Of a stretch of DNA of 64,000 bases, positions 31,877 through 48,401 are shown in pieces. The notes under the pieces are model-generated. The model was not told the DNA's origin. It ran no database searches and saw only the letters and a program-made list of their open reading frames with translations. The DNA comes from Pseudomonas rubra (lineage in GTDB: Bacteria > Pseudomonadota > Gammaproteobacteria > Pseudomonadales > Pseudomonadaceae), in NCBI RefSeq assembly GCF_028656935.1, contig NZ_JAMDGZ010000068.1, positions 1 through 64,000 of the forward strand, read 5' to 3'. Position 1 is the stretch's first letter; each line of letters begins with the position of its first letter. Both the position numbers and the translations under genes were made by a program.

Positions 31877-31888
31877 CGCGTCCACTGG

Positions 31889-31965
31889 GGCCTATAGCTC
31901 AGTTGGTTAGAGCAGGGGACTCATAATCCTTTGGTCCACGGTTCGAGTCCGTGTGGGCCCACCAG
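31889..31965 (+). tRNA. ileX: tRNA-Ile (CAU anticodon, Ile2), chimeric at an island junction
   Basis: 77 nt including encoded CCA. Acceptor stem GGGCCTA pairs with TGGGCCC. The D arm is GCTCAGTTGGTTAGAGC, the anticodon loop CTCATAA (CAT), the T arm CACGG-TTCGAGT-CCGTG. The GACTCATAATC context is that of Ile2 tRNA, whose C34 is modified to lysidine to read AUA, rather than Met tRNA. It is the attachment site of the island: the 3' half differs from the displaced native half at 49816-49862 (one anticodon-stem base and several T-stem bases). The anticodon stem here has G27.U43 and G28.U42 wobbles, whereas the displaced half would restore G28-C42. Confidence 0.93.
31919..31930 (+). other. attL core (anticodon-loop identity block)
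   Basis: The 12-base word GACTCATAATCC is identical at 31919-31930 and 49816-49827. To the right of it the two tRNA 3' halves diverge with compensatory T-stem changes, so strand exchange most likely fell within this block. Tyrosine integrases commonly cross over at anticodon loops. Confidence 0.7.
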
Positions 31966-32024
31966 TTAATTCAAGGGCTGCAGCGCTGCTGCAGTTTCGA
32001 GAGGGTGTTTTGGAATGCTCCCGA

Positions 32025-32045
32025 GGTACAGTTTCGGTACAGTCC
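32025..32045 (+). repeat. Candidate left arm-type integrase repeats
   Basis: GGTACAGT occurs at 32025-32032 and again at 32036-32043 (within CGGTACAGTCC), an 11-base period, between the tRNA and the integrase start. The word CGGTACAGTCC and the same 11-base pairing recur near the right end (49679-49699). Confidence 0.5.
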
Positions 32046-32070
32046 GTGCCGATGTCCTTCGGAGAACAGC

Positions 32071-33135
32071 ATGGCAACTCTCGTAAAAACCCCATCAGGT
32101 ACGTGGAAAGCAGTCATTCGAAAAACCGGATGGCCAACAGCTTCCAAAACCTTCCGCACCAAACGCGACGCAGAGGACTGGTCACGTCGAGCCGAAGACG
32201 AGATGGTCAGAGGCGTCTATATCCAGCGGAGCGGATCAGAGCGCATGACCCTCGAGGCGGCGCTGAAGCGTTATCTGTCCGAAGTGACTCCCACCAAAAA
32301 GCCTTCAACTCAGCGTGGCGAAGCGAACAAGGCGAAGAAACTTATCACCGAGCTGGGTAAATACTCGCTGGCGGCCCTCTCTAGCGAGATCATCGCAGCT
32401 TACCGTGACAAACGGCTGTCTCAGCCCGCAGCCCGAAAGTGCACACTGACCAGCAATAATACAGTTCGGCTTGAGCTGGCTCTCCTCGGTCATCTTTACT
32501 CAACAGCAATCAAAGAATGGGGCCTCGGCCTCACCTTCAACCCTGTTGCGAGCGTTCGAAAGCCTAAACCTGGAAAAGGTCGTGAGCGACGTTTCGTGGA
32601 TGACGAAGAGGACCGGTTATTGAACGCGGTTGACGCACACAGCAACCCAATGCTCGGTTGGATCGTGCGGATCGCCTTAGAGACGTCCATGCGCTCGTCC
32701 GAGATAGCAACGTTACCGCTCTCTCAAGTTGATCTCAAAAAGCGTGTAGCCCGCCTTCCTGACACCAAAAATGACACCTTTCGGACCGTTCCCCTGAACA
32801 AGTCCGCGACAGATGCGATGCAAGCGGCGGTGGATAACCCCCTCAGACCGAAAGGCTGCCAGCTCATCTTCTTCGGTGAACCAGGCAAAGATGGCAAGCG
32901 TCGGCCCTATGCCTTCAGTAAAGTTTGGGCGACGCTGAGAGAGCAGCTCGGGATGAAAGACTTTCGCTTTCACGATCTAAGACATGAGGCCGTCAGCCGA
33001 TTTGTCGAATTAGGCCTTTCCGATCAGGAGGTTTCTGCGATCAGCGGACATAAATCGATGCAGATGCTCAAACGGTACACTCATCTACGCGCCGAGGATC
33101 TGGTCGAAAAGCTCGATAGAATCGAAAAAGACTAG
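32071..33135 (+). CDS. int: Tyrosine-type integrase of the island
   Basis: 354-aa tyrosine recombinase expected to catalyse integration and, with a directionality factor, excision at the tRNA-Ile site. It has an N-terminal arm-binding-like region (KTPSGTWKAVIRKTGWPTAS), a SAM-like core-binding domain (about 65-165), and a catalytic domain with Arg in ETSMRSSEIATL, HDLRHEAVSRFVELG, SGHKSMQMLKRYTH (GH and the Tyr nucleophile). ATG 32071 has GGAG 6 bases upstream; earlier codons in frame run back into the tRNA and are rejected. It lies 105 bases from the tRNA, reading inward. Confidence 0.92.
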   Translation: MATLVKTPSGTWKAVIRKTGWPTASKTFRTKRDAEDWSRRAEDEMVRGVYIQRSGSERMTLEAALKRYLSEVTPTKKPSTQRGEANKAKKLITELGKYSLAALSSEIIAAYRDKRLSQPAARKCTLTSNNTVRLELALLGHLYSTAIKEWGLGLTFNPVASVRKPKPGKGRERRFVDDEEDRLLNAVDAHSNPMLGWIVRIALETSMRSSEIATLPLSQVDLKKRVARLPDTKNDTFRTVPLNKSATDAMQAAVDNPLRPKGCQLIFFGEPGKDGKRRPYAFSKVWATLREQLGMKDFRFHDLRHEAVSRFVELGLSDQEVSAISGHKSMQMLKRYTHLRAEDLVEKLDRIEKD

Positions 33136-33146
33136 GCTTATGTAGG

Positions 33147-33180
33147 CTAGAAAAGATTCAGCATGCGAAAACTTTTCTAG
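33147..33180 (+). terminator. Inverted repeat after the integrase gene
   Basis: Perfect 9-base arms CTAGAAAAG and CTTTTCTAG with a 16-base spacer start 12 bases after the int stop. The second arm supplies a TTTT run. A second short stem (CGGGG-CAG-CCCCG, 33279-33291) lies nearer the next gene. Confidence 0.4.
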
Positions 33181-33346
33181 CCCTCTTTACTCTGCGCCTA
33201 CCGTGCACTCCGACTAAGCAGCGCGAAGGATTGTTGAGCGCCCCCCCTCCCAATTCGAATTTTTTTCCGATTCTTCTCCGGGGCAGCCCCGAAAAAGCTA
33301 AAAATGGAGCAGTCCCTTTCCACTATTACAGTCATCAACCTGAATC

Positions 33347-33595
33347 ATGGATATCCAGATGACTGCAAGCAACGCCCGTTTTGAGCAACAGCTCATTGAC
33401 CGATACGGCCCACTGTTAACAAAGAAGCAGCTGGCAGAGCTGCTACACAGAAGTGAAAAAGGACTGGACTACACCATTGCGCACCCGGCCGAAAGCGAGT
33501 TCGCTGCCTCGCTAAATGCCATGAAGCTTCGGCTTGGCCGCCTGATCTATTTCCGTGCGGCTGATATCGCAACGTTGCTGGCTGGAGATGAGTGA
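33347..33595 (+). CDS. Small predicted HTH DNA-binding protein
   Basis: 82-aa protein. The centre (YGPLLTKKQLAELLHRSEKGLDYTI) looks like the first helices of an AlpA/MerR-type winged helix, followed by RLGRLIYFRAADIATLL, the usual wing and target-site segment. Such proteins next to integrases act as excisionases or as repressors of replication genes. The stop overlaps the repA start region (TGATG), so it is co-translated with repA. A second in-frame ATG at 33359 is possible. No specific family is claimed. Confidence 0.65.
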   Translation: MDIQMTASNARFEQQLIDRYGPLLTKKQLAELLHRSEKGLDYTIAHPAESEFAASLNAMKLRLGRLIYFRAADIATLLAGDE

Positions 33596-34503
33596 TGCCA
33601 ATAGACCTTAGGTCAGTGTTCGTCACCCCACCTCCTGCATTGGACTATGTGTTCGGAAGCTTTGTAGCAGGGACAGTTGGCGCATTCGTCGCACCCGGGG
33701 GAACAGGGAAAAGCTTCTGGGCTCTGCAGACAGCAATCGCAGTGGCTTGTCATGTACCCGAAGGAAACCTTGCTGGAATCGCCCCTCCCTCGAATGGTCC
33801 GGTGTTATACCTCGCTTTGGAAGATAGCGAGCAGGTTCTCGCTCACCGGATACATGCCATCGGTCGATGCATACGGAAACGATCAAAGTACCCGGACGAT
33901 GCCGCTGAAGCATTAGATGCCATAGCAGCGAATCTGATGATCGAACCGATGATGGGCAAGCGGCTGGACGTTATGACCGATAAAGGTATGGAAGCGGTCT
34001 TAAAGCTCCAAGAAGCCCCCCGACTAATCGTCCTCGACACCGTAAGCCGCATTCATGGCCTAGATGAGAACAGCAACAGGGACATGTCTCTTCTGATCTC
34101 GCGACTGGAAGAGCTGGCCACCAAAAGCGGCGCGGCAGTACTTCTCATTCACCACGTAAGCAAAGCCAGCAGACGGGATGGTCAACTCGATCAGTACTCC
34201 TCTCGCGGAGCTTCAGCATTGATTGATAACGCTCGATGGTGTGGCTACCTCACGCAAATGACCGAGGATGAAGCCAAGCGCTTGATCGAAGGCTCCCGGT
34301 TCTCAACTCCGCTGACTGGGCTACATAGCCAGTATGTTCGCCTAGGCGAGAGTAAGCTCAATTATGGATCTGCCGTACTTGAGCAGCAGTGGTTCAAACG
34401 CTCGGAAGGCGGGGTGCTGTTACCGGCTCTGATCAGCGAAGCGAAGTCGCGCGCGACAAGTATGAGGCCTCGAAAAGGACGGGAGGCAGCAAATGCGGTC
34501 TGA
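33595..34503 (+). CDS. repA: IncQ-type replicative helicase RepA (RecA-fold ATPase)
   Basis: 302-aa AAA/RecA-fold ATPase of the RSF1010 RepA helicase family. Walker A GGTGKS at residues 35-40 (APGGTGKSFWAL), Walker B RLIVLDTVSRIHG, and the DnaB-like segment VLLIHHVSKASRRDG are in family order and spacing. RepA is the homohexameric 5'-3' helicase loaded at the IncQ vegetative origin. ATG 33595 overlaps the preceding stop; GTG 33592 is the alternative. It overlaps repC by 11 bases. The pairing with repC makes a replication role much likelier than a generic ATPase. Confidence 0.82.
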   Translation: MPIDLRSVFVTPPPALDYVFGSFVAGTVGAFVAPGGTGKSFWALQTAIAVACHVPEGNLAGIAPPSNGPVLYLALEDSEQVLAHRIHAIGRCIRKRSKYPDDAAEALDAIAANLMIEPMMGKRLDVMTDKGMEAVLKLQEAPRLIVLDTVSRIHGLDENSNRDMSLLISRLEELATKSGAAVLLIHHVSKASRRDGQLDQYSSRGASALIDNARWCGYLTQMTEDEAKRLIEGSRFSTPLTGLHSQYVRLGESKLNYGSAVLEQQWFKRSEGGVLLPALISEAKSRATSMRPRKGREAANAV

Positions 34504-35344
34504 GATTCGTGGTAAGGACGTCATATACACACTTCTAGACCCGGCTTTGGCTGCCGCGTCACTATTCCGGGCTTTCAAATCCGGTCAGCGACCGGTCGGG
34601 CTTGCTGTCGAACACAAGCACGACAACACACATTTCTTGTTCACCTGCTATGAGTGGCTAGATGTCCGAGATCAATCAATCCTTCTGGCCATTGTAGGCT
34701 TGGCCGGACTTGGCCGCGATCTGTTAGGGGCAGAAAACGACTCACTAATAGCTCGGCAGCTTTGGTCAGAACTGCACCCCTTGCGCGATGCACTAGAAGG
34801 TAGAGCTTTAGTACTCACAACGACGTGCTACCGACTGTTGATGGCCGCCAATCTTCCCACTCGCTCCGACGATTACGGTCGCCTGAAAGACTCCCTTTAT
34901 AGGCTTTCTCAGGTCGGCTGCCGGGCCAGAAGGGATGGTTTTGATTGGTCCATGCGCTTACTTAGCGTCGCAACAGCACCAAACGGAGAGATCCTCATTG
35001 CGCTCAACTCTCGATTCGTCCAGGCGCTATTATTTGATGGGCAGTATGTAAAAGTATGCTTAAAGGAGCGCAGGAAGCTAAACGGCGATCCCGCTAAGCT
35101 GCTTCATGCGTGGTTATCGGCCACCATCCGTGAAGGCAGCGAATGCTACTGGACAGGTTTAGATACTGTGTCGCAAAGAGTCTGGGGCCCAATAAGCGTC
35201 GTACCGACAACACAGAGGTGGCGTCGCGCACAAAGTCGCAAAGCACTAGTTGAAATTAGCCAAATTGGTTGGCGCCTCAAATTTCGCGGCGAGGGCATAC
35301 GGTCCCACTTCCAGATTTATCGACCTCGAATCAGATCCGACTGA
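34493..35344 (+). CDS. repC: IncQ-type replication initiator RepC
   Basis: 283-aa protein that aligns by eye with RSF1010 RepC. Both have LFRA(L/F)K.G.R near the N-terminus. Both have the later chain: a G-x-L-Y/I-VALN block, a Q-x-V-(R/K)-(I/V) block, a KLLHAWL-like block, and DT(L/V)..-V(W), R-(R/K)-R-x-(R/K)-AL...I/LGW. RepC binds iterons and opens the origin. ATG 34493 has GGGAGG upstream and lies within the end of repA. Iteron-like 22-bp-period repeats begin immediately after its stop. I see no RepB primase gene, which IncQ plasmids need for priming at ssi sites. Confidence 0.8.
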   Translation: MRSEIRGKDVIYTLLDPALAAASLFRAFKSGQRPVGLAVEHKHDNTHFLFTCYEWLDVRDQSILLAIVGLAGLGRDLLGAENDSLIARQLWSELHPLRDALEGRALVLTTTCYRLLMAANLPTRSDDYGRLKDSLYRLSQVGCRARRDGFDWSMRLLSVATAPNGEILIALNSRFVQALLFDGQYVKVCLKERRKLNGDPAKLLHAWLSATIREGSECYWTGLDTVSQRVWGPISVVPTTQRWRRAQSRKALVEISQIGWRLKFRGEGIRSHFQIYRPRIRSD

Positions 35345-35348
35345 CACG

Positions 35349-35403
35349 TTTTCACCAACAACATATCGCGCTTTCACCAACAGGCTGTCGCGCTTTCACC
35401 AAC
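35349..35403 (+). repeat. Three iteron-like direct repeats (putative oriV)
   Basis: TTTCACCAAC occurs at 35350-35359, 35372-35381 and 35394-35403, an exact 22-bp period; copies 2 and 3 extend left to CGCGCTTTCACCAAC or GCGCTTTCACCAAC. A degenerate CACCAAC recurs near 35547-35553. Position directly after repC and the 20-22 bp spacing are as in IncQ origins. The rest of 35345-35708 holds no gene; it contains a GATCTC/GAGATC hairpin around 35483 and otherwise nothing I can name. Confidence 0.7.
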
Positions 35404-35708
35404 GGAGAAACATAGCTATGTTGCTGGCGAGCCACGAAATACGGGGGTTTCAGACTAACCAAGATTTTGCTTACTAGGAGATCTCTATGAGATCCCTACA
35501 CGTCGGCCCCTCATACGCCGAGGCGGCCTTGTGAGCTTACTAACTATCACCAACGGCGATCGGTACCGAAGCACATCCATCGCCCTGCTGCTTTTTTCTA
35601 ATCAGAGGCTTTCATTCTGCCGTCGACGCGGTGACGGAGGATATGCGGGGATAGGAGAATCTAGCGATGGGACTTGGAAACAAGGAAGCTTGTGAGCTGA
35701 CGTTAAAC

Positions 35709-36620
35709 TTAGCGCAGGTAAGTGTCAGTGATCTCTGGACGAAAATGCCCTAACTCTTGGGAGACAATTGCTTTTGCGCGCTGTACCTCGCCTAAACGGG
35801 CTTGAATCTCGCGGTTTCTATCCTGGGCATAGGAGTGTCTCAAGCCATGCGCTCCATTGCTAAAGCCCAGTGCCGAGTTACTCGCCCGAGAGAAGGATTG
35901 AGACCACGCTTGCCCCCCTGCAATATCGTAGAAGCTTCGGTAATGAATTAGACGATCTATGACAATTACAGGCTCATCTAGGCGTCGAGTTTCCAGTTGT
36001 GCAGCCAAGTGACTAGGTAAACTTACTTCGCGAACAAGTCCGCCTTTTCCTACCACAGTATATCGAACACCCTCTCGAAATTTTTCAGGATCCGCAGGAC
36101 GATCATCCATAGGCCTCTCGGACGCTGGAAGCAGTGTCCGTAGTTCGTGAGCCCTCAAGCCTGCTGTTGCAGCTAACTCAGTGCTAAACCCATTTCGTAC
36201 GGTCTGATGAGAAATAATTCTTTGTACTTGGTCTGGCGTATAATTCCGGCTTCTAAGACTCTGTGGCTTTTCCGCCTTGATTACATTCAAACGCTGCTTA
36301 TCATTTAACTTTCCAATTTGGCGTAGCACAGCTTGGAGAGCCTGCCTGTCTCTGTCCAAAGTCTTTTGACCTACTTCTCTGGAACGCTCATGCAGATAAG
36401 CTTTAGCTGCCTTTGGAGTAAGTTCGTGCAACGCTCCTCGGCCCGAACTACGGAGCCACTGTGCTGCCAGTTTTAGGCTAGCCTCGTAGCTATGCGAAGT
36501 TCCAAGCCCTGAAATTAGTCCAGAATTGTACATTGACTTACTAAGAATTTTTGCTTGGGTAGATGGCTTGGCAAATGTTCTTCTTTCTTTAGCACCGGAA
36601 CTCTTTGTTTTTCTGCTCAT
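35709..36620 (-). CDS. Second tyrosine recombinase
   Basis: 303-aa tyrosine recombinase on the opposite strand to the rep genes. Catalytic Arg in AGLRAHELRTL, Lys in VVGKGGLVREV, HGLRHSYAQDR, and SQELGHFRPEITDTYLR giving the second His and the Tyr only two residues before the C-terminus. The N-terminal 45 residues are Lys/Ser-rich. The start at 36620 lies within the 3' end of the upstream small gene (32-base overlap), suggesting a two-gene unit. It differs from the island integrase in domain layout and is probably a resolvase-like or nested-element recombinase. Confidence 0.75.
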   Translation of the reverse strand: MSRKTKSSGAKERRTFAKPSTQAKILSKSMYNSGLISGLGTSHSYEASLKLAAQWLRSSGRGALHELTPKAAKAYLHERSREVGQKTLDRDRQALQAVLRQIGKLNDKQRLNVIKAEKPQSLRSRNYTPDQVQRIISHQTVRNGFSTELAATAGLRAHELRTLLPASERPMDDRPADPEKFREGVRYTVVGKGGLVREVSLPSHLAAQLETRRLDEPVIVIDRLIHYRSFYDIAGGQAWSQSFSRASNSALGFSNGAHGLRHSYAQDRNREIQARLGEVQRAKAIVSQELGHFRPEITDTYLR

Positions 36621-37008
36621 TAATCACCTGTAACATTCTAACAATAGAACTCAGAGAGGTTTTCACTCCTTTGGCTCGCAACTCTATAAGAATTTGTTCA
36701 GCACCAAATCCCTTCACATACCGATAATTTTCAATGAGACCAATATATTTGTTCAAGTGTCGACGATAGGTCCGACGCTGCAAACTGGCGTCTACATCGC
36801 TTCGGTAGCGGTCGAAGTCGGAACCTGAAACAGATAGTGAGTGCTGCCTCTGAGTATTTAATGATCTGCGAATCGATCTTGAAATTGCGGAAATACAAAC
36901 ATTTACCTGACGCTGTTCAGAGAGCCAGCGTTGAATCATTCCCAGCGTATAGCTCTGTATCCGCAGAGACAAAATCTCTTCGTGGTGCCCATTCAGTTTG
37001 CTATTCAT
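36589..37008 (-). CDS. Small basic protein paired with the second recombinase
   Basis: 139-aa, Arg/Lys-rich protein. Residues about 10-50 (EILSLRIQSYTLGMIQRWLSEQ, then a segment ending ISAISRSIRR) look like a helix-turn-helix of the transposase/resolvase type, and a second helical region ends in LSSIVRMLQVI. It overlaps the recombinase gene at its 3' end, so the two are probably expressed together. A DNA-binding accessory or recombination directionality role is inference. I recognise no named family. Confidence 0.55.
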   Translation of the reverse strand: MNSKLNGHHEEILSLRIQSYTLGMIQRWLSEQRQVNVCISAISRSIRRSLNTQRQHSLSVSGSDFDRYRSDVDASLQRRTYRRHLNKYIGLIENYRYVKGFGAEQILIELRAKGVKTSLSSIVRMLQVINEQKNKEFRC

Positions 37009-37635
37009 AGGTTTCTTGTAATCCTACTGTAAGTTACAGCAACCACTTTAAACTCTTAAATCTCAGCCGCAACTCAAAAGAGGCGCTCGAAATTCAGGTA
37101 TGTGGTTCCGACATCCAGCGGATGCCTAGCCCCTTTTTAGCAGTGTCGGACTTATCAGGTGCAGATACCGTAGTACCGCACCGATGCGCTTGCGCACTCT
37201 CACTGTTTTGCTTCGCTGTCTACTCGACAGAGTCGAAGGGATGAACCCTTGCCAGGTTTTCGCGCCTGATACAACTCAATTTATTGTCAGAGTTAGACAG
37301 TGGTAGATCAGATGCAAGGTCGAAGCAAACCCCACACCTAGCCAGATGCAACCCCTTATGTTGATGGCCAATCAACTCAGGATAACCAAGCATGCAGATT
37401 GAATCAGCAAACTGATACTTGGGAAGCGAGGCGAGGGCAGCAATAGCTGCCGCATAACCCCGCACCACTCACGGAGACTGAATTAGCAGTCTCGAAAGGG
37501 CGCACGAAATAGCGTGACGTCCTGTGAGGTGAACTCATATAGCTAGTTCGGGTGCAATCTGATCTTGCTACCCACACTAATTAAGGTCAACAGCAAATAT
37601 TGAATGTCACATCAATTTTGCTTTTGATCGCGGGA
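37009..37635. other. Gene-poor, hairpin-rich stretch
   Basis: No convincing gene. Short inverted repeats are visible, for example GGTGC/GCACC around 37157-37182, GCGCTTGCGC around 37187-37196, and CTTCG...CGAAG around 37212-37239. An 82-codon open frame on the minus strand (37220-37468) lacks recognisable content. The stretch continues to 37896 through the hairpin cluster and probably includes the promoter of the gene at 37897. Confidence 0.5.
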
Positions 37636-37740
37636 CGCGGCTCTGTTCATGGTGTTGAGCGTAGCGAAGCACCCTGACAGAGCCGCGTGCTTCGCACGCT
37701 GCAGCGCGTAGAGCGCTGCACGTTCAGCCTAAGCTGAACG
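37636..37740. repeat. Cluster of four consecutive hairpins
   Basis: Four perfect stems run almost back to back: CGCGGCTCTG/CAGAGCCGCG (37636-37645 and 37678-37687, with a further imperfect stem inside), GCGTGC-TTC-GCACGC (37685-37699), TGCAGCGC-GTAGA-GCGCTGCA (37700-37720), and CGTTCAGC-CTAA-GCTGAACG (37721-37740). There is no T tract. Such arrays are typical of single-strand initiation sites, transfer origins, or structured RNAs. Function unknown. Confidence 0.65.
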
Positions 37741-37896
37741 AATGAGGATTTCGATGGCGCTGAGTTTTGTGGGATGTTTTGACTGGTTTACCGCTTACTC
37801 GGTGTGACTGAATTTCGTTGACCCATTTTGAGTTGCGCTTTGCTTTGGTTGCTTCACAGTAGAGCTCCTTACGAATGAAAAGCAGAGGAATCTATA

Positions 37897-38091
37897 GTGA
37901 AGGTACTGAATACTGAGATGAGTAAGCAGAGACTGGCAACGCTAGTCGTTCTGGTTGTTTTATTCACCGCTCTGGAAAATTATGCGTATGCCGAAGCAGG
38001 TCCCGTATGGGCAGCGGTCTTTTTCATCGCTGGAACAGCCTCAGTGTTTTTCGCTGTACCTAGAAAAATTTACTCCAGCATTGAGGCTTGA
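37897..38091 (+). CDS. Small membrane protein
   Basis: 64 aa with two hydrophobic segments (about 14-32 and 36-54). GTG start at 37897 with AGAGGA 7 bases upstream. It is followed after 3 bases by a large membrane protein gene, so the two form an operon. No family recognised. Confidence 0.5.
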   Translation: MKVLNTEMSKQRLATLVVLVVLFTALENYAYAEAGPVWAAVFFIAGTASVFFAVPRKIYSSIEA

Positions 38092-38094
38092 TAC

Positions 38095-39990
38095 ATGGGC
38101 GATTTCGGTAGTTTTGGATGGCTATTCCAAAGCGGTCTAGACGCCATGATTTCATCACTCCTGTCGATGGGGGCGAAGCACGCTGAACTGGCTGATACTG
38201 TCCGTCAGCTAGCCAGATCGGTACCTTTTATTTCCTTAACCTGGATCGTCTGGAACTTAGTGCGTGGTAAGCCAACCAATATTCCGCTTGGAGTTTTCAT
38301 TACCTCGCTCTTGATATTTGTCGCATTACAAAATCAGACAGTGACTTTCCCTGGTCGCGCCGGTATGGAAATGACAAAGGGTCAATCAATCGCGCTCGAA
38401 GTAATTCTCCCTACTTATGAAAAACTAGCACAGGTGTATCGCACCAAGGATAATGAACAGTCAACATTAATGATCGCCGATCTTACCGAGCGGGAAATCA
38501 GTCCTTTCATGGGGAGCGACTTGGCGAACCTCATGAAAGACTATAAGCAATATTGCGAGCCCGGTCCCAACGATAAAGCAAACATCACTGATACTGCTTG
38601 GCAAGCAGTAGGATTACGAGGTGGTGGCGCACTTGGGGTACCGGACTCTCAGGTCTCTGTGTTCAGCAGTGCAACTGCTGATGAGCTTTCAGGTCTTAGC
38701 TTTTCTTGGTTCCCACAGATTCGCCAAGCATTGGCCATAATTGATACTTACAAGGCGGGTGATCGGAGATCTGCAGGCAAAGCTGCGCTTGAGCAGCTCA
38801 GCAGTGATAAATGGCCCACCGGGAAAAGATATCTGTTGCCTAGTGAAACGGGATGGCAGTCTAGACTGTCAGGTGGCGTTGATAAACCTACCGGCTTCTT
38901 GAACCCTTGGAAAGTCGCGAATGGATCGCTAGCGGATCCGGCATTGTTATCCGAGCCATCTGGTGTAGCTAATCGATACTTTGTCCCGGAAAATTGCTAC
39001 GAAGCTTATCAAGCTGCTCAAGCGGGCGCTGAAGAGGGATACCGGGCGGTCGGAGATCGTATTCGCCCTTCTAATTTATCGCCTGACTCAGAGCCATCTA
39101 TTGTGGCTGGAGTCAGAGCGTGGTCAGACGTTGTAAATAAAAGTCTGAGCTCTCTTTACTCTAATTCTGGTGATTCGTCGTTTGCATCAAAGATTCGCGA
39201 AAATGCTTCTGAGGCAGTCGGGGCACTCAATGAAGCGAAAGGTGCTCTCGCAACATTGGATCTCGCGGCGAAGCTTCCATGGTTCGTCTATCTCACAGCA
39301 ATGGGGCAGGCTGTCCTCATCCATATATTTCCATTAGTAGCACTCTTCGCGTGTGTCTTTGGAATCGAAATTTTGCTCTACTGGATAAGGCTGCTTGTAT
39401 TTACCTTCCTATCTTTATTTTTCGCCGAAGGCATTTTGTATTTGCTGGCCAGCCAGCTGGCTAAAATTAGCTTTATACAAGCCGCAACTGCTATAAGCAG
39501 CTCGGGTACGCCTTTAGATATTGATGGTATACGTGGGGTTCTAGCCAGTGGCGCCGGCTTCGTTATTCTGGCCGCGACCTGGGCGGCGGGAGCGCTTTTA
39601 AGGATTCAGTCGTTACCAAAGGCTGACGGTGCTACCAGTTTTACGCAACTCGGGAGCGTCGCGGCATCTATTGCAGGCTCAGTAGTAGGCGGGTTCACTA
39701 AGATGGCGGCAATGAAGACCGCTGGCTTGAAGCAAGACCTACTTCGCGCAAAGATTCAAAAAATTCAAGGTCCCGTGGGATCTCCCGGGGCATCGCCGAG
39801 CGGATCCCCTACTGGCAGTGTGAGTGACACGCCGGCACCTTCTCGCCAAAGCCGTGAGTCTGCCGGTCAGCGTCTGTCTCGGCCAGGCGCTCCCGATCAA
39901 GCAGAATACCAGCAGAAAAATCGGACGACTCGCGCTGACCGTGCCGAAAGGCGTCGTTCACTACTCAGCCCTCCGGACAATAAGTCATGA
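38095..39990 (+). CDS. Large multi-pass membrane protein, possibly transfer-related
   Basis: 631 aa. Two to three hydrophobic helices in the first 85 residues (including FISLTWIVWNLVRG and IPLGVFITSLLIFVAL) are followed by a long soluble, probably periplasmic region (about 90-400), then four hydrophobic segments (about 402-520). The C-terminal tail (about 530-631) is polar, rich in Gly/Ser/Pro then Arg. This resembles the topology of conjugative TraG N-terminal-type or TrbL-like proteins, but no diagnostic motif is seen and no other T4SS gene was recognised. It overlaps the next gene (ATGA at 39987). Base composition is clearly lower in GC than the chromosome. Confidence 0.55.
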   Translation: MGDFGSFGWLFQSGLDAMISSLLSMGAKHAELADTVRQLARSVPFISLTWIVWNLVRGKPTNIPLGVFITSLLIFVALQNQTVTFPGRAGMEMTKGQSIALEVILPTYEKLAQVYRTKDNEQSTLMIADLTEREISPFMGSDLANLMKDYKQYCEPGPNDKANITDTAWQAVGLRGGGALGVPDSQVSVFSSATADELSGLSFSWFPQIRQALAIIDTYKAGDRRSAGKAALEQLSSDKWPTGKRYLLPSETGWQSRLSGGVDKPTGFLNPWKVANGSLADPALLSEPSGVANRYFVPENCYEAYQAAQAGAEEGYRAVGDRIRPSNLSPDSEPSIVAGVRAWSDVVNKSLSSLYSNSGDSSFASKIRENASEAVGALNEAKGALATLDLAAKLPWFVYLTAMGQAVLIHIFPLVALFACVFGIEILLYWIRLLVFTFLSLFFAEGILYLLASQLAKISFIQAATAISSSGTPLDIDGIRGVLASGAGFVILAATWAAGALLRIQSLPKADGATSFTQLGSVAASIAGSVVGGFTKMAAMKTAGLKQDLLRAKIQKIQGPVGSPGASPSGSPTGSVSDTPAPSRQSRESAGQRLSRPGAPDQAEYQQKNRTTRADRAERRRSLLSPPDNKS

Positions 39991-40451
39991 GGGATCCTCA
40001 CCGCGTTTTTGTGGGCGGGGTTCTGGCACGCGGAGCCCCATGCTCGGATGTAGGCTCGTCCCTGAATGAGTGCATCCAGATGAGCTTTACCTTCGATTAC
40101 TACCTGACGGCCACCTACTGCGAAAGCTGGGATAACCCGATCGACCTCAGGTATCTGTTTGATGGCCTCGCCCCTTGGCCGGGATTGGTGTGGGTCATGC
40201 GTGGGGATCAGCAATTCCTGTCGCCACAACTGACCGGGATAAGTGCCTATGAGCGGGAGGAAACTACCCCTATCGAGATACGACTTTTTGAGACACCGTC
40301 GCTGGACGCGTTGACCTGGTACCTGGTGACTGCGGAGCTGAATCGGCGAAATGGCTTCGATGACCGAATGGTTGAAATTCATGAAGTACAGCTTCAAAGC
40401 TTGATCAATGAATTACCCGTGGCGACGGTTGCCTACGTCGGGAGAGCATAA
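39987..40451 (+). CDS. Hypothetical protein coupled to the large membrane protein
   Basis: 154 aa, soluble, acidic and aromatic-rich (SFTFDYYLTATYCESWDNP, then EIRLFETPSLDALTWYLV). It starts in a 4-base overlap with the previous gene; an internal ATG at 40080 (MSFTFDYYL) gives a 123-aa form and better-looking start residues. It is followed after 2 bases by the next small gene. No family recognised. Confidence 0.5.
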   Translation: MRDPHRVFVGGVLARGAPCSDVGSSLNECIQMSFTFDYYLTATYCESWDNPIDLRYLFDGLAPWPGLVWVMRGDQQFLSPQLTGISAYEREETTPIEIRLFETPSLDALTWYLVTAELNRRNGFDDRMVEIHEVQLQSLINELPVATVAYVGRA

Positions 40452-40453
40452 AA

Positions 40454-40696
40454 ATGAGCTATTCACGGATTGTCGTGGCGTGGCTGATTTCTGCGGTCGC
40501 TTTACTTCCCGTGTCTGCTGCATTGCCTCTTGAGGCCCCCTCCACCGCTGCACACAAAGCTTACTTGGCACTCCTGATGCTCTCGACCCTGATCGCAATG
40601 TATGCCGCGCAACGCGGGCGGCGTAAAAAGCTTAGAAATCGGTTCTGGTGGGTCTTATGGGGGCTTGCGGTCGCCTTTCTCTGGAGCTGGTATTAA
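40454..40696 (+). CDS. Small membrane protein
   Basis: 80 aa with three hydrophobic stretches (about 5-24, 35-49 and 65-79) separated by a basic loop RGRRKKLRNR. It starts two bases after the preceding stop. Holin-like size and topology are noted, but nothing else supports a lysis role. Confidence 0.45.
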   Translation: MSYSRIVVAWLISAVALLPVSAALPLEAPSTAAHKAYLALLMLSTLIAMYAAQRGRRKKLRNRFWWVLWGLAVAFLWSWY

Positions 40697-40711
40697 TCAA
40701 AGGAGCTTGTC

Positions 40712-41146
40712 TTGAAGCAGCATCAGAAGGTGCTTTGCGTGTTGGGGTGTTCTGCCCTTGTATTAATGCCTTGGGGGAAGACTCTGGAGATGATTTCTCC
40801 CGATGTGAACGGTTATTACATTAGTGGCGGGGGGTTGAACCCTGGGTACAAGGTACTCAAGGTCGACCGTTCAGGGCACGGGAAGATGTACTCATACGAT
40901 GCGATGTACGGCGGAATCCTGAATTCCTACCCTTTCACATATTCGTCCAGCCTGCTGAGCATCACCCTCAATTTTAGCGACGGGAGCCAGTCGATCCTTT
41001 CTCAAGGCTTGTGGGGACTGGAAGGGTTACTCCACTGTACGGCAGGGAGCTGTGGGGGGATGGGTAATGTCAGCCACGTAGGTGAGAACGAAGCTGATCT
41101 TCCAGAAGGATTTCTCCGCGCCCTATCAAAAACCAATTATAGATAA
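40712..41146 (+). CDS. Small exported protein with Cys pair
   Basis: 144 aa. TTG start at 40712 has AGGAG at 6-base spacing. The N-terminus (KVLCVLGCSALVLMPWG) is a likely signal or anchor segment. The body has NGYYISGGGLNPGYKVLKV, and LEGLLHCTAGSCGGMG near the C-terminus with two Cys four residues apart. The overall pattern (GYY start, strand-rich middle, GL-x-C...C end) loosely resembles the two secreted proteins at 41623 and 41990. Function unknown. Confidence 0.5.
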   Translation: MKQHQKVLCVLGCSALVLMPWGKTLEMISPDVNGYYISGGGLNPGYKVLKVDRSGHGKMYSYDAMYGGILNSYPFTYSSSLLSITLNFSDGSQSILSQGLWGLEGLLHCTAGSCGGMGNVSHVGENEADLPEGFLRALSKTNYR

Positions 41147-41161
41147 ATCAAAATTTGATTA

Positions 41162-41189
41162 TTGACGATAAAGGGCATAGTGCTATCAT
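41162..41189 (+). promoter_or_regulatory. Sigma-70-type promoter
   Basis: TTGACG (41162-41167) and TATCAT (41184-41189) with a 16-base spacer lie 58 bases before the gene at 41247. It is the best promoter match I saw in the island. Confidence 0.5.
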
Positions 41190-41246
41190 CTATCCCGCAG
41201 CGCTTTAGAGTAGTAGAAGGGTAAAATCCAAAAAACTCTGCTGCTG

Positions 41247-41537
41247 GTGATGGGGGGGAAGACCTACGGGCTGCCCCCCTGCTCCAATTCTGATGCGTGG
41301 TCTATGTCCTTAATTTTCGAAGCTGATCTACGGCGATACCTAGCTGCTGGTCTTGTGAATGGTATTTCGGTCCTTCACACGAGCGACGGTTGGTTGCTGC
41401 GTATTCGAATGGGTTCCGAATTGGTGTCGCTGCGCCGGCAGCGCGGTGGCGAACGGATGTTCAAGAGCCTCGACAAGCTAGCGAATTTTATCGCCGAGCT
41501 TGGGCTAGAACAGTTCGATGTCCAGCTTAGGAATTGA
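41247..41537 (+). CDS. Small cytoplasmic island protein
   Basis: Up to 96 aa from GTG 41247; the compact domain from Met 41304 (MSLIFEADLRRYLAAG) is 77 aa and may be the true product. The sequence GLVNGISVLHTSDGWLLRIRMGSE and SLDKLANFIAELGLEQFDVQL suggests a small alpha/beta fold. It reminds me of small partition-associated (ParC-like) proteins on Pseudomonas and Xanthomonas islands, but I cannot confirm this. A promoter lies just upstream. Confidence 0.5.
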   Translation: MMGGKTYGLPPCSNSDAWSMSLIFEADLRRYLAAGLVNGISVLHTSDGWLLRIRMGSELVSLRRQRGGERMFKSLDKLANFIAELGLEQFDVQLRN

Positions 41538-41622
41538 AGAAATCGCACTGAAGGTGCTTCTGCCACACCGCGTAGGCGCCGAGCATGAGCTCTAGCGTCA
41601 TTTTTCCCAGGAGATATTCAGC

Positions 41623-41967
41623 ATGATGTTGAAAAAAGCCACTGGTCTCATTGCCCTCTGCATAGGATTGAGCGGCTGCGGTAACGAGTTTGAGGGTAGC
41701 TACAGAGCTATGGACGGCGTCCTAGGGCCGGTGATCGCTATCGAGGTTAAAGGTGACAAAGCAAACGTGGTAAAGGTCGACCCATTTCGCAAAGTGATAT
41801 TGAGCGACCAAATTTGGGAAGCCGAAGAAAAAGGCGAGAAATTGTTGTTGACCGACCTAAGAGGCAAAACCTTTGCTTTCAAGAGAGCAGTTGACGAAAA
41901 AGGCCTGGATTGCCTGAACTGTGGACTCATGCCCGATTCTTGGCAGCGGTTTGATCCAAATAAGTAA
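41623..41967 (+). CDS. Predicted lipoprotein, paralogous to the downstream secreted protein
   Basis: 114 aa with lipoprotein signal: lipobox LSGC, lipidated Cys at residue 19. The mature part has EGSYRAMDGVLGPVIAIEV, VDPFRKV, then KGLDCLNCGLMPDSW. The same order (G-Y start, PF-x-K, KGL-x-C-x(2-3)-C, W) occurs in the N-terminal half of the next protein, so they are probably paralogues. AGGAG lies upstream of ATG 41623. Function unknown. Confidence 0.6.
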   Translation: MMLKKATGLIALCIGLSGCGNEFEGSYRAMDGVLGPVIAIEVKGDKANVVKVDPFRKVILSDQIWEAEEKGEKLLLTDLRGKTFAFKRAVDEKGLDCLNCGLMPDSWQRFDPNK

Positions 41968-41989
41968 TCACCCGATCCAAGGAAAGGTC

Positions 41990-42742
41990 ATGCATTTTAG
42001 AAAACTAATTTTTACCCTTGCGGCTCTACCGGCGATCGCGCTGGCAGATGTGCACATCTTTGATGGAAATTACTCTGTAGCGGTAGGCCCAGGGCCGCTG
42101 AAAGAACTGTATGTCTTGAGCGTCACCGGGGTCGGCGGCACAATGACACTGGCCAAACCATTTCAAAAGCCTCTACCCGCAAGGGCTGTCAATATTGAGC
42201 AACTTCCTAAACGTATGACGGTTACGTCCGACGAGGACAAGCAACTTAAATTGGTTTTTGAGAAGACAGAGAAAGGTTTGGCCTGCATTGAAGGGTGCAA
42301 CGCCTATAGCAGAAACTGGGAAGATATTCAGTTAGCCAAAGAGATGAGGGATCAACAGGTAAATCCGGCATCCAAAGTCGATTTCGACGCTCTGCCCACA
42401 ACCGACCTCGGAAGCATAGACGGCGCGTGGATACAATCTAAGACTGATCCAGCCGATACCAATGACACCGCCTATGAAATTAAAGGTGAATTTGTTAAGC
42501 GCTATTATTTTCTGTTCGGTCTTTACCCCAAGAGCAGCACCCCCGATGTCCTCCTGATTTCAGGTAACTATTTCAAATACCCCAAGTCAGGCGACAAGGG
42601 TATTCAAGTAAAAAAAATCAGCGACACCAAACTCATCGCTCGATTTCCTCAATCCAAAGATCTGGTCTTCCTCTACAAAGCCAATTCGATAAATTTCACT
42701 GACCTCAAAAAGGCACTCGTCGAAGCTGATCCTAGAACCTGA
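41990..42742 (+). CDS. Secreted two-domain protein, paralogue of the lipoprotein
   Basis: 250 aa. GGAAAGG precedes ATG 41990 and a signal peptide follows (about 1-19, LAALPAIALA). The N-terminal half (FDGNYSVAVGPGPLKELYVLSV, KPFQKPL, KGLACIEGCNAYSRNW) matches the lipoprotein pattern. The C-terminal half begins again with DGAWIQSKTD and ends with strand-rich sequence, so it may be a diverged second copy. The stop overlaps the convergent recombinase gene by 11 bases. Low GC. Confidence 0.6.
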   Translation: MHFRKLIFTLAALPAIALADVHIFDGNYSVAVGPGPLKELYVLSVTGVGGTMTLAKPFQKPLPARAVNIEQLPKRMTVTSDEDKQLKLVFEKTEKGLACIEGCNAYSRNWEDIQLAKEMRDQQVNPASKVDFDALPTTDLGSIDGAWIQSKTDPADTNDTAYEIKGEFVKRYYFLFGLYPKSSTPDVLLISGNYFKYPKSGDKGIQVKKISDTKLIARFPQSKDLVFLYKANSINFTDLKKALVEADPRT

Positions 42743-43694
42743 CCTTGAAGGTTGGTGAGTCCTCTGGCCGCAGTTGCCGACGATCGTAGATGCGGGTCGT
42801 GCTGATGTTGGCATGGCCCAACCAGGCTTGAACCTTGGCGATATCGGCCTCGTGCTCTAGGGCATTAGTGGCCGCCGTTGCCCGCAGACCATGCACGCCC
42901 AGGCCAGCCACATCGATGCCGGCGGCCTCGGCGTAGCCTCCCACCATCGTATAGATGCCATTGGCGGTCATACCGGCGCCGGTTTTCCGACCGCGCAGCG
43001 GCACGAACAATGGCGCCCGAGCGTCCTCCAGGTGATGTTCTGAACACTGCAGATAGGCATAGATGCGTTCGGCCGCAATCGGGTGCAGCGGTAAGTAGCG
43101 CAGCTTGCCACCTTTACCATGGATCTGCAGATGCTTGATACCCCGGCGCTCCTGAATATCGCCCACCATCAGTTGGGCAGCTTCCTCACGGCGCAGGCCG
43201 TGGTACAGCAGCACTGCCAAAATCGCCCGATCACGCAGCCCTTTCAGCGAGTCCGCCGACGGTGCATCGAGCAGCGCTTTGGCCTGATGATCACCAAGTG
43301 CCGGAGTTTTGCCTTCATTGCTTTCGATCTTCGGGCGCTTGACCCCGTGTACCGGGTTTCCGCCGGCCACCGCGTTGCTCTCCAGCAGGTGATCGAACAG
43401 GCTGGCCAGCGCGGCCAACTTGCGCCGGATCGTCGCCCCGGCCAGTCCCCGGGTTTCCAGTTGAGCGCGCCAAGCTAGAACATGCGCCCGGGTTACGGCC
43501 CGGAACTCATCGGCCGCAGTTAATCCAACGAAGCCGCAGAAGTCTTCAAGGTCTCCCTGATAAGCACGTCGGGTGCGCGGGTTATCGATGTTAGCAAACC
43601 ACTCAACCGCCGCTGGCACTGCAGCCAGGTGCTGAAACTCAACCGCAGTCAGCCGACGCTCGCCAGCGCTGCCTGGGGTGACGAACTGGCTCAT
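42732..43694 (-). CDS. Third tyrosine recombinase (XerD-like)
   Basis: 320 aa with an N-terminal SAM-like core-binding domain (about 25-115) and a complete catalytic domain: YHGLRREEAAQL, HGKGGKLRYLPL, VHGLRATAATNAL, WLGHANISTTRIYDRR (Tyr nucleophile near residue 303). The gene is distinctly more GC-rich than its island neighbours, so it was probably acquired separately. ATGA overlap with the GNAT-like gene upstream makes a two-gene unit. A perfect 12-base-arm inverted repeat lies before that unit. Confidence 0.82.
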   Translation of the reverse strand: MSQFVTPGSAGERRLTAVEFQHLAAVPAAVEWFANIDNPRTRRAYQGDLEDFCGFVGLTAADEFRAVTRAHVLAWRAQLETRGLAGATIRRKLAALASLFDHLLESNAVAGGNPVHGVKRPKIESNEGKTPALGDHQAKALLDAPSADSLKGLRDRAILAVLLYHGLRREEAAQLMVGDIQERRGIKHLQIHGKGGKLRYLPLHPIAAERIYAYLQCSEHHLEDARAPLFVPLRGRKTGAGMTANGIYTMVGGYAEAAGIDVAGLGVHGLRATAATNALEHEADIAKVQAWLGHANISTTRIYDRRQLRPEDSPTFKVRF

Positions 43695-44245
43695 AACGTC
43701 TGCCTCGCTTTGAACCCAGCTTCAATCTCAGGCCATTCAGGGGAGGCCATTAGCTCGCGAATCTGCCGTTCGTGTGGGAGCTCGGGCACTAGATGCTGCC
43801 AGCGCAGTTGCTCTTGCAGGAGCTCAGCTGTGCGCAATTCGCCCTCAATATCAGCGCCGGCGGCCTTCAGCCTTAGTCGCGCATTGTTCCAGAAACCATG
43901 GGCTTCGTTTGTGCTGTAGATAGCAACAGGGACAATAGGTAAAGCGTTCTCGCAATGCAGTTGCCATAGCACCGCGAGCGCATACCCCCGGCGCTTGAAC
44001 TCGGGGTGGATTTCGATCTTGTTAATGTACAGCCGATCCCTTAACGGATTGATGGCATAGTCAGTCCGGCCAACGGATTGGCCATCGACGGTGATTTCCG
44101 CGATGAACTTAGGCGCAGGGTAGTAGGCATTCCCGCGCGCAGGCTCGATGTACTCAATCTGTAGGTGAACGGCGGGCAATCTGGCGCTCAACCGCTTGGC
44201 CTGCAGTGGCTGATAAAGGTCGCGAATCGGGTCAAGCCAGTCCAT
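43691..44245 (-). CDS. GNAT-like acetyltransferase fold protein paired with a recombinase
   Basis: 184 aa. INKIEIHPEFKRRGYALAVL looks like GNAT motif A (acetyl-CoA pyrophosphate loop R-R-G-Y-A), followed by VPVAIYSTNEAHGFWNNARLRL (motif B-like). The stop overlaps the recombinase start by 4 bases. Whether it acetylates anything, or serves as an accessory to recombination, is unknown. ATG 44245 has only a weak ribosome site. Confidence 0.55.
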   Translation of the reverse strand: MDWLDPIRDLYQPLQAKRLSARLPAVHLQIEYIEPARGNAYYPAPKFIAEITVDGQSVGRTDYAINPLRDRLYINKIEIHPEFKRRGYALAVLWQLHCENALPIVPVAIYSTNEAHGFWNNARLRLKAAGADIEGELRTAELLQEQLRWQHLVPELPHERQIRELMASPEWPEIEAGFKARQTL

Positions 44246-44261
44246 GGAGCCTGCTTTTTAT

Positions 44262-44291
44262 AATTGGTGATAACGTATTTTATCACCAATT
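44262..44291. promoter_or_regulatory. Perfect 12-bp inverted repeat upstream of the GNAT/recombinase unit
   Basis: AATTGGTGATAA and TTATCACCAATT with a 6-base spacer (CGTATT), 16 bases before the start at 44245. Arm length and spacer would suit a dimeric repressor operator or a Xer-type core site (two 11-12-bp arms around a 6-8-bp crossover). Confidence 0.65.
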
Positions 44292-44309
44292 GTATGGCCG
44301 ACTGCCCCC

Positions 44310-44355
44310 TATCTCGCTGAGAGACAGCCAAGGGCTGTCATAACGCTGCGAGATA
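44310..44355. repeat. Nested hairpin
   Basis: Outer arms TATCTCGC/GCGAGATA and inner arms GACAGC/GCTGTC are perfect and nested. The site lies just beyond the 3' end of the membrane-protein gene at 44383 and is followed by an A run on the plus strand. It may serve as a structural boundary; it does not have terminator polarity for the minus-strand gene. Confidence 0.4.
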
Positions 44356-44382
44356 AAAAACCTAGCTAGATATGGATATTTT

Positions 44383-45669
44383 TTACAGGGGCACTGACAA
44401 TGATAGCAGCAGCTTCATTATCTGCTTTGCCCCTTGACTTAGATAACCTTGAAATATGAACGAGTGGAGCGTTGTTGCAGCGATTGCTGGAATCCAACAA
44501 ATAGCCCTCAGGGCTAGCAATGAACGCTTGAGCTTCCTCTCATTTTCCTTGAGACCGTCAACTGCATCCTCAAGGCACCGCTTCAGATCTGCTGGATATT
44601 GACGCGCGGAACTAAAGTGCGCCGAAAACATCATTCTCCGCGAATGCTTAATACGATCGTACTGAAGTTTCTGCGCTGCCAACGTCTCGGCCAAAAGTGC
44701 AGAAGTAATAGTAAGCCCCGCCACCAGTATTGTGCTCTCGAGTCCGCTGTCAGCTTTAGCGATCGCAATTACCGCCACCAACGAAACTGGAACACTGAGA
44801 ATTTTCCCACTGATATCCCCGACCACTTTTGACATCTGATCAGCAATGGTAATCTGCGCCGTGGCGATTTCCTGCTTTATCTTGTGGAAGGAAAAACCAC
44901 TGAGATAGGTAGCAAGATTATTCTCGTATAACTCAACAAATTTTGACCAAGTTGATACCAGAAGTCTGAAGCGCTCTCTGCCGTCGAAATGCCCAGCCAA
45001 ATGCTCAATCAAACTAGCTCGAAAAATCGCCCTCTCTTTAAGCAAGTGAGGATTCACATCCAGATTGCTACCCTGCAGGCTGTCAACGAGCGCGATCCCC
45101 ACCTCGAACGCAAGTAAGCTTTTATCCAAAAAAGGATAGAGTGTTACCGTTCGCTCGCCTTTACTGGAATCATCTGCAACAAAAACCAGCTTATACTCAT
45201 CGCTCGATTTTTTTTCATCATGAAAATGCGCCAAGTCAGCCAAGCAGACGATCAAACGACAAATCGCCTGCAGGGATTTCACCTGAGGGTCAAGTGGTTC
45301 CTCTGAGGACAGCACATCGTCGTCTAACAAATAAAAATGTGGTGGCAGTGACTGGCGCACATAGCTTTTTGAACGCGCCATCAGCTGTTCAATATTCTTG
45401 AAGACTGGCACCGCCCCTGAGGCATCGAGCACGTAACATAGTTCGATGTTCGACCAAGGATTGGATAGTGTCGCCGCCTGCGGCCTCACCTCCTCACCAT
45501 CGATCAAAAGCTCATCAAATCGACCCGTTTTAGACTCCATCAACGCAAGCACGGCTTCGGCCAGCTCAGCGCTATACGCCCCTGCCTTAAAATGAAAGGA
45601 GTTTCCTGTCGTCAGGACCGGACGTCCCAGCAGGCGATAAGCGCGAACGAACTCAAGGACATCGGCCAT
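44383..45669 (-). CDS. Membrane protein paired with the NdpA-like gene
   Basis: 428 aa. The first 290 residues are soluble with no recognised domain (early ADVLEFVRAYRLLGRPVL, later FHKIKQEIATAQITIADQM). Three hydrophobic segments follow at about 293-308, 314-332 and 385-405, and a further short one may lie at the very C-terminus. Topology suggests a cytoplasmic N-terminal domain anchored at the inner membrane. It starts 6 bases after the NdpA-like stop, a tight two-gene operon. No family recognised; low GC. Confidence 0.6.
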   Translation of the reverse strand: MADVLEFVRAYRLLGRPVLTTGNSFHFKAGAYSAELAEAVLALMESKTGRFDELLIDGEEVRPQAATLSNPWSNIELCYVLDASGAVPVFKNIEQLMARSKSYVRQSLPPHFYLLDDDVLSSEEPLDPQVKSLQAICRLIVCLADLAHFHDEKKSSDEYKLVFVADDSSKGERTVTLYPFLDKSLLAFEVGIALVDSLQGSNLDVNPHLLKERAIFRASLIEHLAGHFDGRERFRLLVSTWSKFVELYENNLATYLSGFSFHKIKQEIATAQITIADQMSKVVGDISGKILSVPVSLVAVIAIAKADSGLESTILVAGLTITSALLAETLAAQKLQYDRIKHSRRMMFSAHFSSARQYPADLKRCLEDAVDGLKENERKLKRSLLALRAICWIPAIAATTLHSFIFQGYLSQGAKQIMKLLLSLSVPL

Positions 45670-45675
45670 ATGCGT

Positions 45676-46794
45676 TTACTCAGCTACAGGCACATCTATT
45701 TTGTCTGCTAGCGCCTGGCGGATGACCTCCACAGCCTGATCAGAAAGGTTGTTAATGATCAGCTTGCGGTCTTGTTCAACAAAACGAATTTCTGCATCGA
45801 CCCCTTCGCCCAACGAGTTACGGTCGAATTTAAGCTGCCAATTATCAGCTTTGTAAAGCACGTGAGTGTATTTATCCAGGGTGACTTTGCTGATCGGGAA
45901 CTCGACAGGAACCCCAACTGCTTCACTGTTCAGATGGCCAGTAAACTCGCTCGCCAGGTCATCAGCTTGCCCTTCCATCTCCGCTGGAAAAAACTGACGC
46001 GCAATTGCTTCCACTTCAGACAGTTTCACCGACAATCCAGTGTCACGCTGCTGTTCCAAGTAGCGCAAAACCTCGTCTTTGAAACGAATTCGATTCGGAT
46101 ACAGATTGGGTCGATCGCGGAAAAACCTAACACTTTCCACGATCAAATTTTTGGTGGCTGCAGCTGACGCCGTCCCCACCGCACAGCCTAGTGCGGTGAC
46201 AAAATACCCGGCTGCCGAGCGGCCGGCACTCTGACTTAGGAAGCTGAGGTAATTAAGTTCCTGTTTGGCTTCGTCATCGGCATCGGCGTACTCTCCAAAC
46301 TTACTGAAGTTTATCCGCGCCGCATGATACAGACTGTTCAAGTCGAGCTCGATTAACTCTTCCGGCTCCAGTTCTTCATTAAGCCGGAGGCCATCACGCT
46401 TCTTCAGCATTGCAATCAGTAAAAACCGTGCATTGCCACTTTCATAATCCACAAAAAGAATGTAACCGCCGGACGCGGCGGTGGCTTTCTTGGCAGCTGC
46501 GTGCAGCTCTCCCATGGCCGAACCCGTGATTTCCAGAAAAGATTTTTCCGAGATCACGATTTTCGTGTAGCCGTCGAATTCTTCCGGAAACTCACTCGCG
46601 GTTTTCTTGGCAAATATCCCGTAGTGGGCCGCATTGTTTTTCTTACCGTAAATCGACGTCGCACCAACTATCAATTTGCTCACGGCAGGTTTGGTAACAT
46701 CAAACACTTTTTGGCGAATGAAGGATGGCTGTATATCTTTGAACTGTTCCTTTCTCAGTTCATGGACTACCGCAAAATTAACTTTGATATCCAT
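45676..46794 (-). CDS. NdpA/YejK-like nucleoid-associated protein
   Basis: 372-aa protein of the 37-kDa nucleoid-associated (NdpA/YejK) family. Visible family features are the N-terminal VNFAVVHELRKEQ, GGYILFVDYESGNARFLLIAMLKKRDG, DLNSLYHAARINFSKF, and YLSFLSQSAGRSAAGYFVTALGC, which is near-diagnostic. It is slightly longer than E. coli YejK (about 335 aa). Chromosomal NdpA is a core gene standing elsewhere; this copy is island-borne and paired with a membrane protein. Its promoter must lie in 46795 and onward. Confidence 0.75.
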   Translation of the reverse strand: MDIKVNFAVVHELRKEQFKDIQPSFIRQKVFDVTKPAVSKLIVGATSIYGKKNNAAHYGIFAKKTASEFPEEFDGYTKIVISEKSFLEITGSAMGELHAAAKKATAASGGYILFVDYESGNARFLLIAMLKKRDGLRLNEELEPEELIELDLNSLYHAARINFSKFGEYADADDEAKQELNYLSFLSQSAGRSAAGYFVTALGCAVGTASAAATKNLIVESVRFFRDRPNLYPNRIRFKDEVLRYLEQQRDTGLSVKLSEVEAIARQFFPAEMEGQADDLASEFTGHLNSEAVGVPVEFPISKVTLDKYTHVLYKADNWQLKFDRNSLGEGVDAEIRFVEQDRKLIINNLSDQAVEVIRQALADKIDVPVAE

Positions 46795-48382: not shown

Positions 48383-48401
48383 CCCTCCCTGTCCCCATCT
48401 A

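Follow-up and report, generated by a model that had tools for sequence, protein, structure and literature searches.

We identified, in an island inserted at a tRNA-Met gene, an IncQ-type repA-repC-oriV module of the kind found in GIsul2, by which the excised circle would probably replicate using RepC, RepA and host priming. The island lies in the window, the whole 64-kb stretch of Pseudomonas DNA analysed here, and its features are as follows.

31888–31964, + strand: tRNA-Met, attL and integration target (ARAGORN; empty site in genome G007)
31965–49862, no strand: integrated island, about 17.9 kb (tRNA remnant and G007 empty site)
32071–33135, + strand: tyrosine integrase (frame open from 31951, conserved ATG at 32071; Phage_integrase, E 1e-27)
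33347–33595, + strand: 82-aa AlpA/HTH-like protein at the GIsul2 alpA position (HTH_17, E 0.03, below cut-off)
33595–34503, + strand: repA, hexameric-helicase homologue (1g8y, E 7.8e-53; GTG in frame at 33592)
34493–35344, + strand: repC, predicted iteron-binding initiator homologue (PF06504, E 2.2e-29; overlaps repA)
35350–35403, + strand: three iterons with TTTCACCAAC cores at 35350, 35372 and 35394, 22-bp period (repeat scans; kept in sister islands)
35474–35498, + strand: 11-bp tandem/palindromic element, stem 35478–35496, candidate melting element (TRF period 11; conserved position)
35501–35528, + strand: GC-rich hairpin, candidate single-strand initiation (ssi) site (folding against shuffles)
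35709–36620, − strand: second tyrosine recombinase, adjacent to the origin; candidate resolvase of multimers (weak matches to integron integrases and phage integrases)
38095–39990, + strand: conserved 631-aa protein that by eye resembles a membrane protein, at the position of trbL in GIsul2 (no Pfam match)
42732–43694, − strand: XerC/D-like recombinase kept in sister islands (profile match; comparison with sister islands)
49813–49862, + strand: attR, tRNA-Met 3′ end with a T-arm unlike the host's (tRNA 3′-end remnant)

The original prediction had placed the replicon inside a tRNA island, and both ends of that island could be located as a tRNA-Met/attR pair. Of the genomes searched, the closest was G007 (93% identity at the tRNA), which has the site empty, position 31964 being joined to the sequence from 49863 onward. 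Because its tRNA directly precedes the terminator found past 49862 in the window, the island was assigned to 31965–49862. The T-arm of the attR remnant is GCAGG/CCTGC, unlike the CACGG/CCGTG found in tRNA-Met at six other Pseudomonas loci, and equals that of tRNA-Met in G1262, a carrier of a related island from another genus of the family; for both reasons we read it as a likely trace of a previous host.

The two replication proteins belong to IncQ families, as had been predicted. RepA, read in the original prediction as a RecA-fold protein, contained the GGTGKS motif, and its residues 3 to 285 matched RSF1010 RepA (1g8y/1nlf/1olo, E 7.8e-53) in a search of known structures (PDB). Profile searches for the RepC and RepA helicase families, proposed with the original prediction as its check, matched both proteins: RepA to Pfam AAA_25 (E 1.4e-34) and RepC to PF06504 over profile positions 15–272 of 272 (E 2.2e-29; score 102.9 bits, cut-off 22.8). 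The outcome named as counting against an IncQ-type RepC, the lack of a match to this family, did not occur. RepC was 46–47% identical to RepC of plasmids pKPC-LB887 and pKAM471_4, and its identity with the "IncQ-type" RepC common on enterobacterial plasmids was 32.7–33.1%. It had no match in NCBIfam or PDB and no relative among the viral contigs searched, and its structure prediction from a three-row alignment reached a mean pLDDT of only 33. Among the hallmarks of IncQ replicons, the window thus holds a RepA helicase homologue, a RepC initiator homologue and oriV iterons, and lacks a recognisable RepB or MobA-RepB primase.

The three copies of TTTCACCAAC stand directly 3′ of repC at a 22-bp period, exactly as predicted. 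This was the only 10-mer in the 64-kb window with three copies at one period (11–60), and 10-mer triples at periods 15–30 occurred in none of 40 simulated windows (first-order Markov); TRF described the array as 2.5 copies with a score of 80. The absence of the array from homologous repAC islands would have spoken against the prediction, and it was kept in both such islands, with three units in one (G278) and four in the other (G067), two of these with the exact core. The 22-bp period by itself is not diagnostic of IncQ; Rep3-family plasmids are also reported with 22-bp iterons (PMC7885321, in the accessible text).

Past the array, at +75 to +93, lies the palindrome, followed by the GC-rich hairpin. 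According to the available parts of the respective papers, two palindromes accompany the iterons of IncQ-3 origins, together with GC-rich and AT-rich stretches (PMC7557826), and the 40-nt ssiA site of RSF1010 contains a hairpin (PMC4434180). Compared with the AT-rich, two-palindrome layout of IncQ, the window had the palindrome and one GC-rich hairpin; the second, GGCC-type hairpin that we saw by eye in GIsul2-type origins was not recognised in it. Folding of the window's own hairpin region was unremarkable to moderate against shuffles (z −1.89, with 10 of 200 shuffles equally good; z −0.89 on a different cut), and the corresponding regions of the two sister islands gave z −4.92 and −3.63 (0 of 200 shuffles equally good). 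Over 22 loci, the mean origin folding z was −2.66, versus −0.57 for 48 control segments (p 1.3e-7, uncorrected for kinship).

The position of the palindrome was also conserved. It started 50–85 nt past the array in 17 of 22 loci, with 1.14 expected from shuffles, and a comparable palindrome appeared in 11 of 157 control segments elsewhere in the same loci. The 22 loci scanned comprised 18 RepA+RepC elements, one RepA-less RepC-like locus and three plasmids; close kin were among them, and the 17 positives contained 14 distinct palindromes. The strict scan found none in L010, L012, L036, L059 and L060. The count was made without L006 (contig end 60 bp past repC), L031, L011, L013, L038, L024 and L057, and without L061 and L065, which duplicate the RepC rows of L037 and L007.

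By gene content and order, the island can be described as a GIsul2-like integrative and mobilizable element (IME), from a tRNA-Met subfamily whose transfer-region gene differs. The genes of GIsul2 were reportedly first described by Harmer et al. in 2017. In the accessible text of two papers, GIsul2 is an IME with int, alpA, repA/C, resG and trb genes (PMC5704250, PMC9376610). We assign the window's island to this known kind because GIsul2 has RepA, RepC, the array and the palindrome, and no RepB hit. In the GIsul2 copy of pAB3 (NZ_CP012005), RepA and RepC are IncQ-type by annotation and follow the same int-alpA-repA-repC order, and a 22-bp array at the repC stop is followed, in our reading of the sequence, by a palindrome and a hairpin. 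Both elements carry one or more transfer-related genes and no recognised relaxase (for GIsul2, as given in the available part of PMC5704250), and in both a tyrosine integrase and att repeats go with insertion at a conserved gene. The differences lie in the target, which is guaA for GIsul2 and tRNA-Met in the window, in the cargo, and in the transfer region, where GIsul2 has TrbJ, TrbK and TrbL genes and the window has the 631-aa protein, not recognised as TrbL. RepC was 31% and RepA 37% identical between the two, and the other island proteins showed no similarity at E 0.01. We found no paper describing the iterons of GIsul2; where "iterons" stand beside GIsul2 in the accessible text, they belong to other plasmids. 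Integration of GIsul2 persists after joint deletion of alpA and repA/C, according to the accessible part of PMC9376610, a result that does not bear on maintenance.

Among plasmids, pKPC-LB887 and pKAM471_4 share with the window the RepC family, a 22-bp array directly 3′ of repC and an AT-rich palindrome at the same distance, but they are mobilizable plasmids with a MobA/RepB primase, and the island has neither of these. The near relatives L001–L003 carry 22-bp arrays. IncQ-2 plasmids pR1 and pRAS3-3432 resemble the window in RepA (49%) and in their 22-bp iterons, and differ in an array far from repC, a MOBP relaxase-primase fusion and a RepC only 31.9% identical. SGI1 offers the functional precedent, as a mobilizable island that, according to the accessible text, replicates when excised from iterons downstream of its initiator gene (PMC7433901, PMC7826253); unlike the window, it has a RepA_C/Rep_3-type initiator and 17-bp iterons and needs an IncC activator.

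The absence of a primase gene is not peculiar to this genome. Four overlapping genome draws, which are no census (398 genomes for the genus, 390 for the order, 369 for the class and 398 for the family; 1,555 look-ups), were searched at an E threshold of 0.001, with Pfam RepC in the genus draw and the three-row alignment A1 in the others. RepC matches were found in 26 genomes, with RepA adjoining in 22. A 22-bp array stood at the repC stop or at most 240 bp from it in 21 of these 22 RepA+RepC loci, the exception being G365, whose contig ends 60 bp past repC, and in two of the four RepA-less RepC loci. The RepB primase family (PF16793) was absent from 20 of the 22 RepA+RepC genomes, and in the window's whole genome it was not found even at E up to 1. 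The other two had a match: in G365 it lies on the 3.6-kb contig that also carries RepC, and in G1290 it shares a contig with RepC at a distance of 1.1 Mb. Three RepB-bearing plasmids used as positive controls were matched by the same search; PF16793 was present in the IncQ plasmids pKPC-LB887, pKAM471_4, pR1 and pRAS3-3432; pDSM14862_g gave no match. Most relatives examined, GIsul2 included, thus appear likewise to carry the module without a primase gene.

Since no RepB primase was detected anywhere in the window's genome, host priming is favoured. The original prediction had left room for priming by an unrecognised island gene, and this part gained no support: among 18 island proteins, Pfam recognised no primase family (37897–38091 and 43691–44245 lay outside that scan). 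The mechanism that we propose, from excision to the copy number of the circle, is predicted from sequence comparison. The integrase, with the AlpA-like protein, would excise the island; RepC would bind the iterons and open the AT-rich palindrome; RepA would unwind both strands; and the host primase DnaG, instead of RepB′, would start synthesis, perhaps at the hairpin beside the palindrome. In RSF1010, DnaG-type priming sites can stand in for ssiA and ssiB. Replication would serve to prevent loss of the excised circle, as shown for SGI1. Counting against the proposal, such RepB-free replication would be a real departure, because IncQ systems as described in the available text rely on RepB′ to prime at their ssi sites (PMC4434180, PMC2200642). 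An initiator, a helicase and an origin without a primase would allow a direct test of the primase's role and of its replacement by the host. A 2021 article, in its accessible part, stated that plasmid-like replication was unreported for IMEs with RepA/RepC-family genes (PMC7826253), and the origin boundaries given here make IME replication testable, also for relatives of GIsul2, a resistance island tied to the spread of sul2.

The main rival to host priming is a primase supplied in trans, an IncQ RepB′ or a conjugative-plasmid primase, which would make the island a satellite for replication as well as for transfer. We consider it unlikely, although two observations agree with it. The array-palindrome-hairpin layout of the RepB-less origins recurs in the RepB-encoding plasmids L001 and L002, and the island would need a transfer helper anyway, because Pfam detected neither a relaxase nor a full set of transfer genes among the 18 island proteins scanned. 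Nevertheless, with no RepB in 20 of 22 carrier genomes, such a helper would be absent most of the time, and the helpers proposed for GIsul2 are IncP plasmids, not IncQ, in the accessible part of PMC5704250.

The history of RepB can be approached through a RepC tree of 26 rows, four of them RepB-bearing (built without L011, L012, L013, L031 and L038). A single clade of RepB-bearing rows was rejected (AU p 1.1e-4, lnL difference 600), and well-supported branches forced at least three changes of the RepB label, or two without four long-branch rows. When the labels were shuffled, their clustering proved no stronger than chance would give (values as low arose in 102 of 500 shuffles for RepB-minus rows and in 84 of 500 for RepB-plus rows). 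Plasmid L003 was scored RepB-minus because PF16793 missed it, and it may carry a divergent primase. RepB loss in several lineages appears the simple reading of this tree, in which some joins lie between long branches; gain of RepB by plasmids, or recombination, would also explain the interleaving. Tentatively, and with less confidence than for replication of the excised circle by host priming, we suggest that IncQ-type RepA-RepC replicons lost their primase in several lineages on entering integrative elements, forming a widespread class that maintains the excised form by DnaG priming at conserved origin hairpins. The open-access literature, to which our search was confined with subscription papers outside it, returned no description of a primase-less repAC class.

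A tyrosine integrase related to that of the window or of G010 lay nearby in 19 of the 22 RepA+RepC loci; those without were G606 (contig edge), G365 (short contig) and G657. Integrases 67–91% identical to the window's adjoin tRNA-Met in G278, G067, G298, G685, G1262 and G1157, the site in G298 being deduced from the neighbouring rpoD and sensor genes, and one of the same type (67–91%) lies near tRNA-Thr in G1290. Integrases 87–93% identical to that of G010 accompany GIsul2-like RepC and TrbJ/TrbL in most other loci. On this evidence there are two subfamilies, the tRNA-Met (window) type and the G010 type. RepA, RepC, TrbJ and TrbL of G1014 and G1267 are identical to those of GIsul2, and TrbJ/L matches are also present in G1262 and G1157 of the tRNA-Met subfamily. 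At locus L020 (6511–10316, G298), an integrase of the same type (75%) and an AlpA-like protein (38%) occupy the same chromosomal place with no RepA of this family, and a 22-bp repeat in 4.4 copies stands after a distant RepC-like protein; this looks like a swapped replicon. A distant RepC-like protein without RepA also precedes 6.9 copies of a 22-bp repeat in G878 (L038/L077), so that such arrays reach beyond the RepA-bearing group.

A decayed replicon, with the chromosome alone now maintaining the island, would agree with the single integrated copy in the 5.94-Mb assembly. We regard this as improbable in view of the sister islands. A scan of genome contigs gave only two, in Pseudomonas sp. 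JAI120 (G278) and P. kairouanensis (G067), both at the same tRNA-Met. They share the region from int through the lipoprotein at 41623 and the XerC-like gene, differ in the right-hand cargo, and have no TrbJ or TrbL match. RepC was 87 and 84% and RepA 84 and 83% identical to theirs. The open reading frames are intact, and dN/dS between islands was well under 1 for repA (0.17–0.21) and repC (0.12–0.23), as for int (0.06 versus either sister), so repA and repC are under purifying selection. Moreover, the iterons and palindrome are conserved while the flanking intergenic DNA diverges, and the array of L010 gained a unit. Least probable of all is that the two replication proteins and the iterons serve chiefly for regulation or to hinder other plasmids (by iteron titration or incompatibility): interference is plausible as a gain because SGI1 replication destabilises its helper (PMC7433901, accessible part), but that interference itself depends on replication, and titration needs no helicase, yet RepA adjoins RepC in 22 of 26 loci.

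The integrase is 90% identical in the two sister islands. The AlpA-like protein is 90–93% identical there and 38–57% identical in L012, L027, L058, L059, L060, L062 and L063; it is likely an excisionase or regulator, with a weak AlpA assignment. The second tyrosine recombinase is conserved in L015, and a frame break splits the copy in L014. This divergent recombinase and a 139-aa partner (35709–37008) run convergent to repC beside the origin, a place occupied in G1290 by a different recombinase. The 631-aa protein is 79–80% identical in the sister islands and 25% in G1290. It was rejected as TrbL (PF04610 not found at E up to 1), and its structure prediction from a three-row alignment had a mean pLDDT of only 32. 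A tblastn search with two plasmid relaxases gave no match, and no MobA-type mobilization genes were found among the 18 island proteins scanned. A cargo pair at 44383–46794, without a PADLOC match, sets a 428-aa protein (phrog_5023) beside an NA37-type nucleoid-associated protein (phrog_3767).

Outside the island, long C-rich low-complexity runs at 63005–63106, near the contig end, are probably an assembly or sequencing error. At L048 in G006, a genome with no RepC match, similarity to the window passes tRNA-Met into the integrase region as far as 32322, so that another island occupies that tRNA-Met. Between attR and host DNA, about 650 bp (49902–50550) are absent from G007, and within them we noted by eye a HicB-like frame at 50001–50405.
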